Below, piece after piece: positions 1 to 6,315 of a stretch of DNA of 6,315 nucleotides. A program made the position numbers and the translations under genes. How positions within the stretch are numbered: the stretch's first letter is position 1; each line of letters opens with the position of its first letter. Source of the DNA: Caldilineaceae bacterium. Lineage in GTDB: Bacteria > Chloroflexota > Anaerolineae > Caldilineales > Caldilineaceae. Location of the stretch: assembly GCA_012032975.1 (NCBI GenBank), contig JAAUPU010000190.1, positions 1 through 6,315 of the forward strand, in the 5' to 3' direction. Under the pieces are notes generated by a model, which did no database searches, was not told the origin of the DNA, and was given only the letters and a program-made list of their open reading frames with translations.

Positions 1-575
1 TCGGCCAGATTTTGGACAAACTGGATGAACTCGGTCTAATCCGAAAACACGCTGGTTCTCTTCACATCGGACCATGGTCATCTCTTTGGCCAGCATGGCA
101 TGATCGCCAAAGGACCATTTCATTACGAAGACCTGATCCGCGTGCCAATGATTGCCGCCCTCCCCCAACGTATCCCCGCTGGCGTGGAGAGTTCGGCCAT
201 GCAATCGCTGGTCGACTATGCGCCGACCTTGCTTTCGATAGCCGGTCTTGAGATCCCGAGTAGCATGACAGGCGTGGATCAGGCCGCGGTCTGGCAGGCA
301 GAGCAAGCTCAAGCCCGCGACATATCCTCGTCGAAAACCGCCATCAGCCCACCACGATCCATGTCAAGACTTATGTCGATCAGCGCTACAAACTGACCGT
401 CTACTACCGGCACGACTACGGCGAACTCTTTGACCTGCACGAAGACCCCGGTGAGACCAACAACCTCTGGCGATCACCCGACCATGCCAGTCTAAAAAGT
501 GATTTGCTCATGAAGCTGTTGCACGCCGAAATGGGCAAGGAACCTCTACCCATGCCGCGCATCTGGGGCGCATGA
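1..575 (+). CDS. Sulfatase (arylsulfatase-type), C-terminal part, 5' truncated, two frameshifts
   Basis: This is the C-terminal part of an alkaline-phosphatase-superfamily sulfatase, which hydrolyses sulfate esters; the N-terminal part with the Cys/Ser formylglycine site lies beyond the left edge. Visible family marks are TSDHG (Asp at 70-72, His at 73-75, metal-site residues), then GMIAKGPFHYEDLIRVPM with the conserved Lys at 109-111, SLVDYAPTLL, and near the end GELFDLHEDPGETNNLW, typical of sulfatase C-termini. The gene is read in three pieces: frame 3 from base 3 to about 41, frame 1 from 43 to about 320, frame 3 from 321 to the TGA at 573-575. One extra C at 41-42 and one missing base near 319-321 explain this, and correcting both gives continuous family-like sequence. 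It is therefore either a recent pseudogene or, more likely, a gene with sequencing errors. It ends 44 bp before melA on the same strand, suggesting one operon. The substrate is not shown by the sequence. Confidence 0.88.
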
Positions 576-603
576 CCACCTTCTTCCATTCACCATCCGT
601 CTG

Positions 604-608
604 AAAGG
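604..608 (+). promoter_or_regulatory. Candidate ribosome binding site of melA
   Basis: AAAGG lies 11 bases before the ATG at 620. It supports translation starting at 620, although the longest open frame begins only at a TTG at 702. The match to the Shine-Dalgarno consensus is short and the spacing slightly long. Confidence 0.4.
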
Positions 609-619
609 TCCGAATCACC

Positions 620-2027
620 ATGCCCAAAATCGTCTTGATCGGCGCAGGCAGCACCGTCTTCGCCAAAAACATGATGGGAGACATTCTCAGCTATCCCGAA
701 TTTGGCAGACGTTACCCATGATCGCCTGCACGACATTGATGAAGAACGCCTGCACACATCTCAGGTCGTGGCCAAAAATATCGCCAAACACGCTGGGCGC
801 CCATCCGATCATCGAAGCCCACCACCGGACCGCCGCCGCAGCCCTGGATCGGCGCGGAACTACGCCATCTCCATGATCCAGGTAGCCGGCTACCACCCCG
901 GCACGACCACCGATTTCGAGATCCCCAAACAATATGGCCTGCGCCAGACCATCGCCGACACCCTTGGCATCGGCGGGATCATGCGCGGCCTGCGCACCAT
1001 TCCCGTGCTGTTGGAGATGTGCCACGATATGGAGGAGCTCTGCCCGGAGGTGACCTTCCTGCAATATGTCAACCCAATGGCCATGAACTGCTGGGCGATC
1101 AGCCGGGCGACGCGCATCAAGACGGTTGGCCTTTGCCACAGCGTACAAGGCACCGCCGAACTGCTGGCGCGGGACATCGGCGTGCCGGCCGACGAGATCA
1201 ACTTTGTCTGTGCGGGAATCAACCACATGGCGTTCTACTTGAGTTTTGAACGCCGCAACGAGGACGGTGTCGAGGATCTCTATCCGCGCATTCGGCAAGT
1301 GTTGGACGACGGTCGCGTGCCGGATGACAATCGGGTGCGCTATGAAATGTTCAAACGGCTGGGCTACTTCGTCACCGAATCCAGCGAGCACTTCGCCGAG
1401 TACACGCCCTGGTTCATCAAGCGCGACCGGCCCGACCTGATCGAGCAGTTCAACATTCCGCTGGACGAATATATCCGTCGTTGCGAATTGCAGATTGCCG
1501 AATGGCAGTTTATGCGTCGCAAGCTGGAGCAGCCGACGCTCGATCTAACCGACGAGGTAAGAGCGAAGATGAAAGAGGTTGGCGTCCCCGAAAAGCGGGT
1601 GAGCCGATTCCTGGCGCAGCTCAACGACCTCAACCAGGTGAAACGCAGCCACGAATATGGCTCCGGCATCATCCATAGCATGGAAACCGGCGCGCCGCGG
1701 GTGATCAACGGCAACGTGCCCAATCATGGGCTGATCGACAACTTGCCCGAAGGCTGTAGCGTGGAGGTTCCCTGTCTGGTCGACAAGAACGGCGTGCAAC
1801 CCATTGCCGTCGGTGCGCTGCCGCCCCATCTGGCCGCGATGATGCAAACGAACATCAACGTCCAGTCGCTCACGGTCGAGGCTGCTCTGACAGGCAAACG
1901 GGAACACATCTACCACGCCGCGATGCTCGACCCCCACACCGGCGCCGAACTCGACCTCGACCAGATTTGGAACCTGGTTGATGACCTGATCGACGCCCAC
2001 GGCGACTGGCTGCCCGCCTATCACTGA
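620..2027 (+). CDS. melA: Alpha-galactosidase, glycoside hydrolase family 4 (MelA type), with indels near the 5' end
   Basis: GH4 enzymes are cytoplasmic and need NAD+ and a divalent metal; MelA-type members split alpha-galactosides such as melibiose. After correction the protein is about 467 residues, normal for the family. It begins MPKIVLIGAGSTVF (Rossmann dinucleotide-binding glycines), followed by ADTLGIGGIMRGLRTIP, YVNPMAMN (Asn about 150), GLCHSVQGT (Cys about 171) and GINHMAFYL (His about 201); this Cys and His are the expected metal ligands. YFVTESSEHFAEYTPWF and a C-terminal HGDWLP also match MelA. The start at ATG 620 has an RBS-like AAAGG. An extra T in 701-703 shifts frame, so the open frame seems to begin at TTG 702 and loses the nucleotide-binding motif. 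Three further extra bases (one G in 795-797, C850, one A in 858-859) add to +3 and scramble about 20 residues without a stop. The upstream sulfatase suggests sulfated or galactose-containing glycans as the source of substrate; this is inference. Confidence 0.9.
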
Positions 2028-2080
2028 GTTGATCCAGGCGCGCTTTTTGCCTTGTCGATAGAAACTGATCTGTTGAATAA

Positions 2081-2112
2081 AGACACCGCGTTTGGTGAGA
2101 AACGCGGTGTCT
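2081..2112 (-). terminator. Rho-independent terminator between convergent genes
   Basis: A perfect 13-bp stem (2081-2093 with 2100-2112) encloses a 6-base loop (2094-2099). On the minus strand the stem is followed by TTTATT, so it best serves the YwiC-like gene, whose stop codon is 21 bases upstream. On the plus strand only a weak pyrimidine stretch (CTCTTCTC) follows, yet the hairpin lies 53 bases after the melA stop and may also stop transcription from that side. Confidence 0.8.
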
Positions 2113-2132
2113 GGCTCTTCTCAACTTCCCGT

Positions 2133-2963
2133 TCAGCCGCCAGCGAATTGCCAATAGCCGACGGCGATGAACCCCACAGTCATCAGCCCCAAGCCCAATT
2201 CCAAAAAGCCAATCTTCTTGATCGGCCATCGCGGCCGGTTGGGAGCGAGAAAAAGCCCGGCGCGCGCCAGAAGAATAAGATATGGCAGAATCGCCAGGAA
2301 CGGAAGCCAGCCAAGCATGGCCAGCCAGGCGATCACCAACAGCGCGAGCACATGGGCGCCGATCGGCACAGCCAGCCCCACATCTCGCCCTTTGTCCAGG
2401 CGGATGCGCGCACGCACATACAACACGGACGGCAGCCCACGCGCAGCCAGCGCAACCCACAACGCCAGGGCCGCGGTCCAGCCCCAGCCATCGATCAGCG
2501 CGATGCTGGCTGCGACCGAACCGAGCGCAACCGGCGCGGCCAATTCCGCCTGTATCGTGCGGGCTGGCCCGGTCAAATCATAGAAGAGGTAGATCGCAAC
2601 AAAAGGAAGCGCCAGCGCCAGCGGCGCCAGAAAGACCCATGGCGCCATCCAGAGTGTGGCTGCAAACCCTGCCAGGGCAACAGTCCCATAGAGCAAAGCG
2701 ACCTTGACGGCCAGCGCCATACGTTGGCCGCGCACGCCGCGCCGTCGAGCAAGTAGCCAGTATTTGACCGGCTGATGGATCAGAAATCCGGCGATGGCCG
2801 CGATGCTCAAGCAGAGACCGGCAAATGTTGGCGCCACCATCAGGCCAAGCAAGATAGGCTCGAACAGAAATCCCCATCCGCCATGTTCGGCAGGCAGGGC
2901 GATGAGACGCAGATCGTGTGTTCGGGTTTGGGTGGTGGATGGCATAGGTCGAAGAAGTATCAT
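2133..2963 (-). CDS. YwiC-like family integral membrane protein
   Basis: This is a polytopic membrane protein of up to 276 residues that resembles the YwiC-like family, whose biochemical role is unknown. The family mark is near the N-terminus, LPAEHGGWGFLFEPILLGL (His27-Gly-Gly-Trp30), followed by HQPVK at 63-67 and a basic patch (LARRRGVRGQR, 71-81). The segment around Glu140 (IQAELAAPVALG) and the later LPSVLYVRARIRL also fit the family. Many hydrophobic stretches suggest about eight to nine membrane helices. Two starts are possible: ATG at 2963 (used here) or ATG at 2945, which gives a protein beginning MPSTTQTRTHD; neither has a good Shine-Dalgarno sequence. The gene begins 17 bases after the T-run of the rpsT terminator, so it depends on read-through or on a promoter overlapping that terminator. 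Frame and family assignment are fairly sure; function is not known. Confidence 0.82.
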   Translation of the reverse strand: MILLRPMPSTTQTRTHDLRLIALPAEHGGWGFLFEPILLGLMVAPTFAGLCLSIAAIAGFLIHQPVKYWLLARRRGVRGQRMALAVKVALLYGTVALAGFAATLWMAPWVFLAPLALALPFVAIYLFYDLTGPARTIQAELAAPVALGSVAASIALIDGWGWTAALALWVALAARGLPSVLYVRARIRLDKGRDVGLAVPIGAHVLALLVIAWLAMLGWLPFLAILPYLILLARAGLFLAPNRPRWPIKKIGFLELGLGLMTVGFIAVGYWQFAGG

Positions 2964-2980
2964 TCAATATTCTGAACAAC

Positions 2981-3009
2981 AAAAAAGCCATCTGCAATTG
3001 CAGATGGCT
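2981..3009 (-). terminator. Rho-independent terminator of rpsT
   Basis: A perfect 24-bp palindrome at 2986-3009 can form a 10-bp stem with an AATT loop. On the minus strand it is followed by six T residues (2986-2981) and then GTTGTTC. It lies about 30 bases after the rpsT stop, a classical intrinsic terminator. Confidence 0.9.
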
Positions 3010-3039
3010 CGCCAATTCAGATGTAAAGGATGCGGGCGA

Positions 3040-3309
3040 TCAGGCTGCTGCGACGGCTTTGTTATACATCCGCGCCAGACGGCTCTTATGACGCGACGCG
3101 TTGTTCTTGTGGATCACGCCCTTGCTGGCCGCTCTGTCCAACGCCTTCATCGCCTCTTGCACCGCCTCGGCCATGTTGTCACTGCCCGCCGCGATAGCTT
3201 CGCGCGCATTCTTGAGAGCGGTACGCGAGTTGCCACGGACAACTCGGTTACGAACCCGGTGCTTCTCGTTCTGAAGAATGCGTTTCTCGGCCGATTTAAT
3301 ATTTGCCAT
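3040..3309 (-). CDS. rpsT: 30S ribosomal protein S20
   Basis: S20 is a small basic protein that binds 16S rRNA early in assembly of the 30S subunit. The 89-residue product begins MANIKSAEKRILQNEKHR and carries the family's C-terminal signature KGVIHKNNASRHKSRLAR. It is rich in Arg, Lys and Ala throughout and has the normal length. The ATG at 3309 is chosen over an in-frame upstream ATG at 3327 because the family starts MANIKSA and a GGAG (3320-3323, read on the minus strand) lies 10 bases upstream. The gene has its own candidate promoter just inside the preceding gap and its own intrinsic terminator, so it is probably a single-gene transcript with a leader of about 90 bases. Nothing in it looks broken. 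Confidence 0.98.
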   Translation of the reverse strand: MANIKSAEKRILQNEKHRVRNRVVRGNSRTALKNAREAIAAGSDNMAEAVQEAMKALDRAASKGVIHKNNASRHKSRLARMYNKAVAAA

Positions 3310-3319
3310 TCGTCTGTTG

Positions 3320-3323
3320 CTCC
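3320..3323 (-). promoter_or_regulatory. Ribosome binding site of rpsT
   Basis: GGAG on the minus strand, 10 bases before the ATG at 3309. It decides between that start and the in-frame ATG at 3327, which lies upstream of it. Confidence 0.7.
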
Positions 3324-3361
3324 ACAACTTTTTTCATATCATGTGCGACCTGCAAGATGTC

Positions 3362-3395
3362 AGTGCGTCCGGTCTACCTAAGGGGTACGCGCACT
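3362..3395 (-). promoter_or_regulatory. Possible leader hairpin of rpsT
   Basis: Bases 3362-3367 (AGTGCG) pair with 3390-3395 (CGCACT), and an inner TACC/GGTA pairing closes a TAAG loop. The hairpin falls in the presumed 5' leader between the candidate promoter and the rpsT start. Many ribosomal protein mRNAs are controlled by leader structures, so a regulatory role is conceivable, but the sequence alone does not show it. Confidence 0.3.
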
Positions 3396-3406
3396 CACAA
3401 GCAAAT

Positions 3407-3436
3407 AGTATAGCGCAACAAGCTTGGCGTTGTCGA
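3407..3436 (-). promoter_or_regulatory. Candidate sigma-70-type promoter of rpsT
   Basis: On the minus strand TCGACA (3436-3431) resembles the -35 box and TATACT (3412-3407) the -10 box, each five of six matches to consensus, with an 18-base spacer. It sits in the gap just downstream of the DUF2085 stop codon and would give an rpsT leader of roughly 90 bases. Confidence 0.5.
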
Positions 3437-3441
3437 ATTTC

Positions 3442-4110
3442 TCACCTGGAAAAACGGACACAATACCACTCTGGCCCCTTATCCTTCCGCGGTATGAGCG
3501 CGCGAGCTGCCTGTTGCAACTCTTCGGTTTCAATAACATCCAGCATCGCATCATCAATGTAGGGATAGGCAAAGAAGACCGAGGCCGCGCCAAAGAGCGC
3601 GCCTGTCAACGAACGCAGCCACCAGTTGCTTTCCCGCAGCCCAACGAGCTGCGTCAAGCCATCGACCGCAATGGGGATCAGGAAAAGTAGATAGATTTTG
3701 AAACTCATCGGCTTGATGCGTCTTCGCAGGAAGGCAAAGGCTATGCCGGCCAGAAAGACCGAACCGTAGATCGCGATATCGCGTTGACAGAGCGCAACTT
3801 TGTAGCCGATGCTGTCGTTGCCGATGAAGACGCGTTGACTCAGCAGATTGTCAGTTCCATCCATACCAGCCAACACCAATTCTGGCTGCAATGGAACCGG
3901 GTTGACGCCAAAGAGGAAATAGCTGTGGTCGGGCAGCTGGTGGCACAGGACGGAATAGAGCAGATAGATCCCCCGTGCGGGTGTGGTCAGCCCGGCCTGC
4001 ATGAGGATCGGCGCGAGAAATGGCAGAAAGACATAAAGCGCCCATGCGACGTTGAAGATCGCCAGCCAGTGGCGCGCGACGCCCATGACCAATCCATCCA
4101 CCACCCGCAC
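3442..4110 (-). CDS. DUF2085 family membrane protein
   Basis: This is a membrane protein of 222 residues in this reading, resembling the DUF2085 family of unknown function. Signature pieces are LCHQLPDHSYFLFG (Cys56-His57-Gln58), ALCQRDIAIYGSVFLAG (Cys108), IPIAVDGLTQLVGLRESNWWLR (Asp150, Arg159, Trp163-164) and LTGALFGAASVFFAYPY. Hydrophobic segments lie near 14-38, 112-128, 137-152 and 166-183, with another weaker one around 43-56; the C-terminal tail of about 35 residues is hydrophilic. The listed start is a GTG with no clear RBS; an internal ATG at 4086 (MGVARHWLAIFN) preceded by GGATGG is an alternative. A reading starting at ATG 4193, 12 bases after the preceding stop, would join this frame only through a frameshift. 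The conserved cysteines, and the position after a CxxC protein and CcdA, hint at a redox link, but this is speculative. Confidence 0.85.
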   Translation of the reverse strand: MRVVDGLVMGVARHWLAIFNVAWALYVFLPFLAPILMQAGLTTPARGIYLLYSVLCHQLPDHSYFLFGVNPVPLQPELVLAGMDGTDNLLSQRVFIGNDSIGYKVALCQRDIAIYGSVFLAGIAFAFLRRRIKPMSFKIYLLFLIPIAVDGLTQLVGLRESNWWLRSLTGALFGAASVFFAYPYIDDAMLDVIETEELQQAARALIPRKDKGPEWYCVRFSR

Positions 4111-4205
4111 GATAATGGATGGGCGATAGAATTGAGCTTCTGGTGCGGAAATTGTCTGGACAGATTCTGAAGGACGATGTGGTTTTTATCCATGCTGGCG
4201 TCAGT

Positions 4206-4457
4206 CTAGCAGCCCTGGGAATCATTGGCAATCAGTGCAGCGCGAATCGCTTGCATGTCGTGGGGAGGATAGTGGACAGGGCCGTCTTCGAAATCCAGCA
4301 CGGGGATTAGAAAGCGATAGCGAGCCAGATCGTCCGGCGACTCTTCGATGTTGCGTTCGGTCAGAAGAAAGCCGAACTCCTCTTGGAGCAAGAGGAGTTC
4401 GGCTTTGAGTTCGTGACAGAGGTGACAGTCTGGTTTGCCGTAGAGGGTCAAGCGCAT
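4206..4457 (-). CDS. Glutaredoxin-like small CxxC protein (DUF836/thioredoxin fold)
   Basis: This 83-residue protein begins MRLTLYGKPDCHLCHELKAE: a first beta strand followed by the redox motif Cys11-His-Leu-Cys14 at the start of a helix, as in glutaredoxins. IEESPDDLARYRFLIPVLDFEDG carries the cis-proline region (IPV) that faces the active site in thioredoxin folds. The length and the RYRxLIPVL pattern fit the short glutaredoxin-like DUF836 group rather than classical thioredoxin. There is no signal peptide, so it should act in the cytoplasm. It starts 19 bases after the ccdA stop, and an AGG (4469-4471, minus strand) lies 11 bases upstream of its ATG, so the two are almost surely co-transcribed. 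A role passing electrons to CcdA from the cytoplasmic side is a reasonable inference. Confidence 0.86.
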   Translation of the reverse strand: MRLTLYGKPDCHLCHELKAELLLLQEEFGFLLTERNIEESPDDLARYRFLIPVLDFEDGPVHYPPHDMQAIRAALIANDSQGC

Positions 4458-4476
4458 ATGGCCGCTGGCCTGTCGC

Positions 4477-5448
4477 CTATTGCGAAGCGGAACTGACCGC
4501 AGCGCCGCTCAAATAGCCGATGTAGGCAGGCACCAGCGGCAACACACACGGGCTGAGGAAACTGATCAGCCCGGCGGTAAAGGCCAAAGACGCCGCGGAT
4601 ATCGCGCTGGCATCAAAAACGTCGCCCCCCGTGCTGGAAAGCCCGGCGACGGCCTCTTCAAGGACGAAGACCCACTCGTTGAGAAAATAGAACTGGGTAG
4701 TCAGCGTGGCCAGGCTGTCGGTCCAGAGCAAATAGGCTACATACAGCAGGAAGATGCCGCTGACAAAACTGACGACATTGGCATGTCGATTGAGTTTACG
4801 CAGATAGCGCGTCGTCGTGCTAAAGGCCGCGCCGGTGATCAAGAAGGGGATGCCCAAACCGAGGCTGTACGATTGCCAGCAACAGGCGCCCCGGGCGGCG
4901 GTCGCGCCATCGCTGGCCAGAAAGAGGATACTGGCCAAGATTGGTCCGACGCAGGGCACCCAGCCTGCGCTAAAGCTGACGCCCAAGAGCACGCTGCTCA
5001 TGAATCCCCAGCCACGCTTGACATGGTGCATGTCGGTAACCCGGCGCTCGGTGTAGAGCAGGGAGTTAAAAAAGTTGAGAATGCTGACGAGCGCCAGTGC
5101 AGCAGGGTTTTGATTCAAGTTCGGTCTGGCATGTATCTGAGCAATGGTCCAGCGGAAAAGCCCGATGGTGGTCAATCCAAAAATGACCAGCATGATCGCG
5201 CCCAGACTCTGGATCATGGGCAGATACTGGTTGAGGCTGGCCCCGAGCAACCCGGCTGCCGAACCGAGCAACGTAAAGACCACACCAAAACCGAGCACAA
5301 AGGCGACGGCGTGCATGAAGACGACCAGCCGGCTGGCTTCATCCGACCTGCGGGCAGCAGCCGTCGCGACTGCCGGATCCGTTGGCTGCGCAACCGGCTG
5401 TTCGGTTGTTATCGTGTTTTTCTGTGGCTTTTCAATCAATTGCGCCAT
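4477..5448 (-). CDS. ccdA: CcdA-family thiol-disulfide transporter with circularly permuted helix order
   Basis: CcdA proteins carry reducing equivalents from cytoplasmic thioredoxin across the membrane for cytochrome c maturation, using one cysteine in each of two helices. Both are present: Cys166 in SAGWVPCVGPILASI and Cys301 in GLISFLSPCVLPLVPAYIGY. The order is unusual. A hydrophilic tail (1-40) is followed by helices resembling family helices 2 (42-68), 3 (75-98), 4 (148-177), 5 (187-209) and 6 (224-242), then a linker without Lys or Arg (243-283), and only then the family's first helix (284-316) before the stop. Normal CcdA begins with that helix. Positive residues cluster in loops expected inside the cell. 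Residues 189-193 (CCWQS) appear misread: restoring one base near 4886 and dropping C4870 gives LLLAI, as expected. The ATG at 5448 has GGGA 11 bases upstream (5460-5463). The neighbours are ccmB upstream and a CxxC protein 19 bp downstream. Confidence 0.9.
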   Translation of the reverse strand: MAQLIEKPQKNTITTEQPVAQPTDPAVATAAARRSDEASRLVVFMHAVAFVLGFGVVFTLLGSAAGLLGASLNQYLPMIQSLGAIMLVIFGLTTIGLFRWTIAQIHARPNLNQNPAALALVSILNFFNSLLYTERRVTDMHHVKRGWGFMSSVLLGVSFSAGWVPCVGPILASILFLASDGATAARGACCWQSYSLGLGIPFLITGAAFSTTTRYLRKLNRHANVVSFVSGIFLLYVAYLLWTDSLATLTTQFYFLNEWVFVLEEAVAGLSSTGGDVFDASAISAASLAFTAGLISFLSPCVLPLVPAYIGYLSGAAVSSASQ

Positions 5449-5716
5449 GATCCATCATTTCCCTATTTGGTCCACCGCACACACTCTACGGTGCGAATTT
5501 CTATCCACCTATCGGATTCCGAATCTTGCAACCGGTAACGCCGGTTGAGCAGTCGAGGCTGTTTTCCGCATATCGAAACTACAGCGAGTCAGCTACATGA
5601 GATCCTGCTGACCCTTCTCATTCAAGAATAGTCGACACACGCAATCAACTTTACCGTTCAACCGATTCACACCGCTGTAATTCTGCCTACCTGCAAGACC
5701 CGGTGGCCCGTGGTTC
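5449..5716. other. Spacer between ccmB and ccdA with small dyads, no gene seen
   Basis: No convincing coding sequence, RNA gene or intrinsic terminator with a T-run is visible. It holds a 7-bp stem with a 5-base loop (5529-5535 with 5541-5547), a 6-bp pairing GTCAGC/GCTGAC (5588-5593 with 5607-5612), and overlapping short dyads around 5512-5525. These could be part of a ccdA leader or an operator. No promoter matches well enough to name. Confidence 0.4.
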
Positions 5717-6315
5717 TTATGCCTGTTCCCAGATCAGATCGAAGACCAGATAGGCAATCGCAATAAAGATCAGATCATAAACGATCAAAAGCGCAAGCCA
5801 GTTGCGTACATCCATCAATGTGTCGCCATCCAAGATGCCAGCGGTCAAACCAACCCCTGCGACGAAGACCGGCACCATCACCGGCAGCAGCAGAACGGGC
5901 AACATGGTCTCGCGGGCGCGCGTGCTGGCTGTCAACGCGGCGAAGAGCGTGCCGACGCTGACATAGCCCAGCGTGCCAAGCAACAGTCCGACCAAAATCC
6001 ACACCCTAAATAGGTTGACGTCAAAAATCACCAACAGGATCGGCAAGATCATCAACTCGGTCGCCAGCATGAAGAGCAGATTGGCCGCCATCTTGCCAAA
6101 ATAGATCGCGCTGCGATCGACCGGCGCCAACAACAACGCGGCCAGGCTGCCGCGATCGGCTTCGGCGCCAAAGCTGCGGTGCAAGCCGAGTACGCCGGCA
6201 AAGAGGACAATGGTCCAGAGCACCCCCAGGGGCGGCTACCACTCTCGGCTTCGGGCACACGCAGGTCAAAGGCGAGGCCAAAGATGACGACAGCCAGCAC
6301 ACTGAACGCGGCCAT
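5717..6315 (-). CDS. ccmB: Haem exporter protein CcmB, 5' truncated, locally frameshifted
   Basis: CcmB is the membrane subunit of the CcmAB ABC transporter, which works with CcmC and CcmE in System I cytochrome c maturation. The visible 198 residues (corrected) start inside the first membrane helix (AAFSVLAVVIFGLAFDLRVP), continue through VAAPGVLW, FAGVLGLHRSFGAEADRGS and LLAPVDRSAIYFGK, and contain the family-typical ARETMLPVLLLPVMVPVF; about six hydrophobic segments fit CcmB. Roughly 25-30 N-terminal residues lie past the right edge, so the ATG at 6315 is probably internal. The frame changes between 6240 and 6223: one extra base in 6239-6240 and one in the five-base run 6223-6227 explain it and recover the conserved APGVLW. 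Read without correction, the gene seems to begin at the GTG at 6223. The stop at 5717-5719 is 268 bp from ccdA, with no terminator seen between, so the genes may or may not share a transcript. Confidence 0.9.

Follow-up and report, generated by a model that had tools for sequence, protein, structure and literature searches.

The question raised by this locus is whether a membrane protein of the CcdA family can be made with its first transmembrane helix (TM) at the end of the chain. The gene lies in a 6,315-nucleotide stretch of a Caldilineaceae bacterium (contig JAAUPU010000190.1, positions 1 to 6,315; hereafter the window). Its open reading frame (ORF) on the minus strand encodes 323 amino acids with an ATG start and its own stop, 19 bases ahead of the next gene. 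The helix carrying the GWVPCVGP motif (Cys166) is third in chain order, and the SPCVLPLVPAY motif sits, together with Cys301, in the last helix. Neither cysteine, nor the proline preceding it, varies among the 19 rows aligned from the closest group or the 25 rows of a diverse alignment. The initial annotation had proposed a circular permutation of CcdA with new ends in the TM1-TM2 loop.

Against PF02683 (DsbD_TM; cut-off 27.1) the window protein scored 63 bits, enough for membership, with the match split over two stretches. A profile of 19 homologues (A1) matched PDB 5vkv, the CcdA solved by NMR (nuclear magnetic resonance), at E 1.4e-28 in three stretches. Profile positions 278-307 fell on chain residues 6-35, positions 35-89 on 40-94 and positions 142-247 on 112-213. 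Since these stretches come in rotated order, the chain reads TM2, TM3, TM4, TM5, TM6, TM1. The two redox Pro-Cys motifs of PF02683 (TM1 and TM4) are both present. The helix order TM1 to TM6 of PF02683 and 5vkv was tested and is replaced by TM2-6 followed by TM1, and the protein was therefore filed as a CcdA variant. With segment models, each segment was found once, in preserved cyclic order and with a shifted start. The window protein is a CcdA with a circular permutation, its new ends lying between TM1 and TM2. ORF translation and the 5vkv comparison also bore out the coordinates and residue numbers of the initial annotation.

CcdA has inverted pseudo-symmetry with a cysteine in TM1 and in TM4, and the C-terminal helix might for this reason be an extra TM4-type copy, with nothing relocated. 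This was rejected as highly improbable: the helix matches TM1, and each of the six helix segments occurs once. It carries the SPCVLP motif, its model matches the N-terminal helix of normal-order CcdAs, its column conservation follows that of normal TM1 (r = 0.88), and no N-terminal TM1 was found with the segment models.

The protein shares with CcdA (PF02683, 5vkv) six helices, two Pro-Cys motifs, the same residues at conserved columns and a cytochrome c context, and differs from it in helix order (2-3-4-5-6-1; 4-5-6-1-2-3 in the second group described below), in the acidic linker joining the old ends and in new ends predicted to be cytoplasmic. The homologous electron-carrying membrane domains of DsbD and TsoB gave weak matches far under the curated cut-offs (NF001419, 32 bits against 330; NF045694, 31.3 bits against 805), and no model attained its cut-off in the NCBIfam scan of the window protein. 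Unlike these two, the window protein has no fused periplasmic domains, and its helix order differs. According to a System I review (PMC3601427), DsbD moves reductant from cytoplasm to periplasm, and CcdA is its variant in some organisms.

A protein search returned 7026 proteins at E <= 0.001 among 7999 scored candidates. The order TM23-TM456-TM1 was read by segment models in 120/120 of the best 120 of these 7026 (query included), the best homologues other than the query being 63–73% identical. One permuted gene (locus L001, OY282381.1) lies on a record of 5.06 Mb whose title gives it as chromosome 1 of an uncultured Caldilineaceae bacterium; PF02683 matches there are confined to the permuted ORF. 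A single-sequence profile search of genome contigs gave no match. In an alignment-based search of the genome collection, the best 80 loci comprised 13 with this first rotation (L001-L006, L008, L009, L025, L046, L048, L057 and L069), one with another rotation (L077) and 66 with normal order; at L053, also among these 80, the TM2-3 segment was not matched.

Genomes were then counted by eye from match listings. A match was counted when unbroken from position ~22 or less to ~248 or more of a 265-position profile. Phylum labels were taken from the record titles of the centre loci, and helix order was verified by segment models on fetched loci only. In the Chloroflexota class of L001, a search proposed in the initial annotation, 61/199 genomes had a full-length match to the diverse permuted profile (65 places), and 30/30 fetched loci showed the rotated order. 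A stop codon is read through within the match at 4 of the 65 places (G078, G1002, G885, G938) and in several matches of the Woesearchaeota phylum; these were kept. Full-length permuted matches were present in at least 21 of 111 genomes of the phylum of the Deinococcales locus and in at least 23 of 194 of that of the Woesearchaeota locus. The first segment models gave TM456-TM23-TM1 for two Deinococcota loci and TM456-TM1 for one archaeal locus; rebuilt models read 21 permuted copies in Deinococcota and 23 in archaea. One genome in 199 had a permuted CcdA in the phylum of the Clostridium locus (L311, G1517), and likewise one in 199 in that of the Terriglobia locus (L320, G1630); these single copies may be transfers or mis-binned contigs. 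At a cut of E 1e-52, no permuted match was found in 249 Pseudomonadota genomes (phylum of the Mesorhizobium locus) or in 198 Bacteroidota genomes. The same cut was applied to the class of L001 and to the Clostridium and Terriglobia phyla, and because of it divergent permuted copies could escape these scans. Normal and permuted copies coexist in several genomes.

Two permuted CcdAs (L085, L111) have a partly hydrophobic insert of ~55–70 residues between TM3 and TM4. A 487-residue ORF at L094 (G008) has CcdA TM4-6 (and, judged by eye, TM2-3) ahead of a thioredoxin-like region; no TM1 was found in frame.

These data bear on whether the contig joins two gene copies, or contains a frame error, so that TM1 only appears to come last. 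Neighbouring genes in the window do show frame breaks (~1-570, ~620-710 and in CcmB at 5717-6315). The rotated order is nevertheless shared by all of the best 120 proteins, by the chromosome-level record and by many independent genomes of the three groups, and a chimera was therefore rejected; its probability is close to nil. The initial annotation had named relatives with normal order and a chimeric assembly as grounds for abandoning its reading. Neither applies, as close relatives share the permuted order and the assembly explanation fails.

Beyond what the initial annotation had covered, the permutation is widespread, a second rotation exists and the origin seems to be repeated. At L077 the helix order is TM4-TM5-TM6-TM1-TM2-TM3, and the order TM456-TM1-TM23 was read in 120/120 proteins listed from the L077 search (P0122-P0241, own cluster included). 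Within the class of L077, 18/197 genomes matched the second-rotation profile at 1e-50, with the order confirmed in 18/18; source names of members include Dehalococcoidia (Chloroflexota). In the usual CcdA topology the TM1-TM2 and TM3-TM4 loops are both cytoplasmic. Judged by helix order, it is these two different loops that were opened, and the old ends are joined in both groups.

For the origin of the first rotation, a wider tree was made from 142 proteins put in a common helix order (73 first-rotation permuted, 199 columns), following a smaller, earlier one of 154 proteins (42 permuted, mostly Chloroflexota, 206 columns). In the wider tree the Deinococcota permuted copies form one group with a Shimodaira-Hasegawa-like approximate likelihood ratio test (SH-aLRT) support of 100, while the permuted and normal copies from archaea fall into one group (SH-aLRT 98). 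The approximately unbiased (AU) test on this tree rejected a single clade of all 73 first-rotation copies (log-likelihood difference 162, p = 2e-6). On the smaller tree a single permuted clade was not rejected (p = 0.245), which leaves room for one or several events inside Chloroflexota. The second rotation formed one group at 100 in the smaller tree (14 close rows) and three pieces in the wider one (11 more diverse rows).

In archaea, the same redoxin family was present in the fetched stretch at 20/23 permuted and 5/7 normal loci, and lay at most 160 bases downstream in 19 permuted and 5 normal loci; two of these loci had supplied the redoxin query sequences. Between the permuted CcdA of L316 and the normal one of L319, identity is 60% across a stretch of 192 residues and 68% across one of 31, the two stretches coming in swapped order. 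Given the same adjoining redoxin and this likeness, the two forms mostly share the same operon place in archaea. The L316 copy and a normal paralogue ~4.5 kb away were also considered as a recent tandem pair, which was ruled out at 51% identity over 191 residues. The archaeal operons L046, L316, L317 and L319 have CcdA beside a thioredoxin lipoprotein-like gene and a protein with redoxin and Thioredoxin_10 regions (Pfam on L046 only).

The TM2-6-TM1 rearrangement thus seems, from the trees and operons, to have arisen more than once. A single permutation event, disseminated by gene transfer and later reversed to the normal order in some lineages, is considered unlikely. It agrees with the AU result of the smaller tree, and tree labels cannot separate gain from loss; the wider tree rejects one clade, and for the joint archaeal group, whose two forms mostly occupy one operon position, reversion would have had to happen in situ. 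The most likely route, plausible as already suggested in the initial annotation, is in-frame tandem duplication of ccdA and subsequent trimming of the outer parts, the mechanism and direction of change both being inferred. A different breakpoint (TM3-TM4) would have been used in other Chloroflexota. Among the ORFs classified by segment models, none had TM1 at both ends, as a duplication intermediate would. On balance we lean towards a permutation-tolerant CcdA that exists in three natural orders (1-6, 2-6-1 and 4-6-1-3). Its rotations would have arisen several times, sometimes in place within an intact operon, relocating the two termini from the outer side to the cytoplasm while function is retained, and the second rotation would exchange the two inverted halves.

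In normal CcdA both termini are on the outer side. It follows that an outer acidic linker can join the old ends while the cytoplasmic TM1-TM2 loop opens, and both new termini would then lie in the cytoplasm. Charge counts over 120 homologues mostly fit this topology of cytoplasmic ends and an outer linker. The N-terminal tail is net-basic in 66%, and lysine plus arginine exceed aspartate plus glutamate in the linker (mean length 39 residues) in 0/120. A first AlphaFold model from 19 rows was poor (predicted local distance difference test, pLDDT, 60.2) and was superseded by a 90-row monomer model with a predicted template modelling score (pTM) of 0.75, in which the predicted fold agrees with CcdA over TM2-6. 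Foldseek, run with the predicted structure, returned no match with an E-value of 0.001 or lower.

The permuted chain is pictured as folding into the ordinary CcdA bundle. In a domain-swapped oligomer, the C-terminal TM1 would instead complete the bundle of a neighbouring subunit. We regard this as improbable, as the linker is on average long enough for return within its own chain and the monomer model has the pTM given above. Cytoplasmic thioredoxin would reduce the Cys166/Cys301 pair as in normal CcdA, and electrons would pass to a periplasmic thioredoxin-fold protein, in the group of the window mainly for cytochrome c maturation. The likeliest reading is that the gene product is a functioning carrier of thiol electrons that adopts the CcdA fold and has both ends in the cytoplasm. 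That it represents a functional, naturally permuted CcdA is very probable.

The neighbouring genes point to cytochrome c maturation. L001 and L004 share a row of cytochrome c, ABC ATPase, CcmB, CcmC-type protein and permuted CcdA, extended by a DUF836 protein in both, a TlpA-like redoxin in L004 and DUF2085 in L001. The window likewise has a DUF836 gene adjoining ccdA, a DUF2085 gene and an upstream CcmB (Table 1). Unlike in L001 and L004, no CcmC-type gene was found between CcmB and ccdA (window 5449-5716), where 268 bases hold no clear gene. A PF02683 search was made in nine permuted-gene genomes, picked because they showed few matches. In 8/9 the match was in the permuted ORF alone, G006 having one further weak ORF, and 7/7 of those searched for them had two cytochrome-c-assembly proteins. 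Elsewhere the tested neighbours were a rhodanese lipoprotein (L008), DUF2085 and a DsbA-like protein (L009), thioredoxin and redoxin (archaeon L046) and two metabolic enzymes (L057); at L077 and L069 none of three tested neighbours had a Pfam match.

The partners at L008, L009 and L046, and the presence of normal and permuted copies together in some genomes, would suit a permuted paralogue that has taken on another role, for instance in other periplasmic thiol pathways. Such a shift is unlikely: the group to which the window belongs has the gene within a Ccm operon (L001, L004), and in the chromosome-level genome no PF02683 protein other than the permuted one was found.

The nearest precedent we found is the pair VKOR and DsbB: these membrane proteins also take part in thiol redox chemistry, and a circular permutation relates the way their helices are threaded (PMC4555120). 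That paper hypothesises gene duplication and deletion and claims its case as the first to be reported for distantly related alpha-helical membrane proteins. VKOR and DsbB, quinone-linked four-helix bundles, serve here as an analogue only, being two distant families related by fold. The permuted CcdAs differ: they are clear sequence homologues (~60% identity across the rotation in two archaea), they show two different breakpoints, and either order can stand at the same position in the operon. Searching the literature for circular permutation in connection with CcdA, DsbD or cytochrome c biogenesis yielded no relevant paper, most subscription journals lying outside the search. In the sources covered, few natural circular permutations of helical membrane proteins appear to be on record. 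In permuted CcdA the homology is unmistakable at the sequence level, the rearrangement occurs in both bacteria and archaea at two breakpoints, and there are signs that it originated repeatedly. This case makes it possible to test to what extent folding depends on the order in which helices insert and on where the termini lie, as the helix normally inserted first goes last, and it bears on the evolution of inverted-repeat transporters. Annotation is also affected, some members being named TauE/SafE sulfite exporter or hypothetical protein and others CcdA.

The features of the window are collected in Table 1. The N-terminal tail is closed by the nearly invariant Arg40 (alignment), just before TM2.

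Table 1. Features of the permuted ccdA gene and its neighbours in the window (residue numbers refer to the 323-residue product).
Feature	Positions	Strand	Basis
Circularly permuted ccdA, order TM2-3-4-5-6-1	4477..5448	-	ORF translation, PF02683, 5vkv match, homologue order
New N-terminal hydrophilic tail, residues ~1-40, predicted cytoplasmic	5329..5448	-	Alignment, tail charge count
TM2-TM3, residues ~41-98	5155..5328	-	Profile vs 5vkv residues 40-94
TM4-TM6, residues ~147-245	4714..5010	-	Profile vs 5vkv residues 112-213
Redox Cys166 in GWVPCVGP motif	4951-4953	-	Invariant in alignments
New acidic linker, old C-terminus to old N-terminus, residues ~246-283, predicted non-cytoplasmic	4600..4713	-	Charge count
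TM1 relocated to C-terminus, residues ~284-313, FLSPCVLPLVPAY	4510..4599	-	Profile vs 5vkv residues 6-35
Redox Cys301 in C-terminal TM1	4546-4548	-	Invariant in alignments
Putative AGGG ribosome-binding-like element, ~12 bases 5' of ATG	5449..5470	-	Read directly from sequence
Glutaredoxin-like protein (DUF836), 19 bases 3' of ccdA	4206..4457	-	PF05768 58.5 bits
DUF2085 membrane protein	3442..4110	-	PF09858; recurrent neighbour in L001, L003, L009
CcmB-like cytochrome c maturation membrane protein, upstream of ccdA, frame broken	5717..6315	-	PF03379 3.9e-21 on ORF 5717-6223; overlapping frame 6052-6315

Genes at window positions 1-570 (sulfatase-like by eye), 620-2027 (GH4 glycosidase) and 5717-6315 (CcmB) are fragmented, their frames overlapping, much as an error-prone contig would show. 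Within the window CcdA itself, the stretch GACCWQSY (residues ~187-194) deviates from 18 aligned relatives and resembles two compensating indels; this deviation is probably due to sequencing errors.
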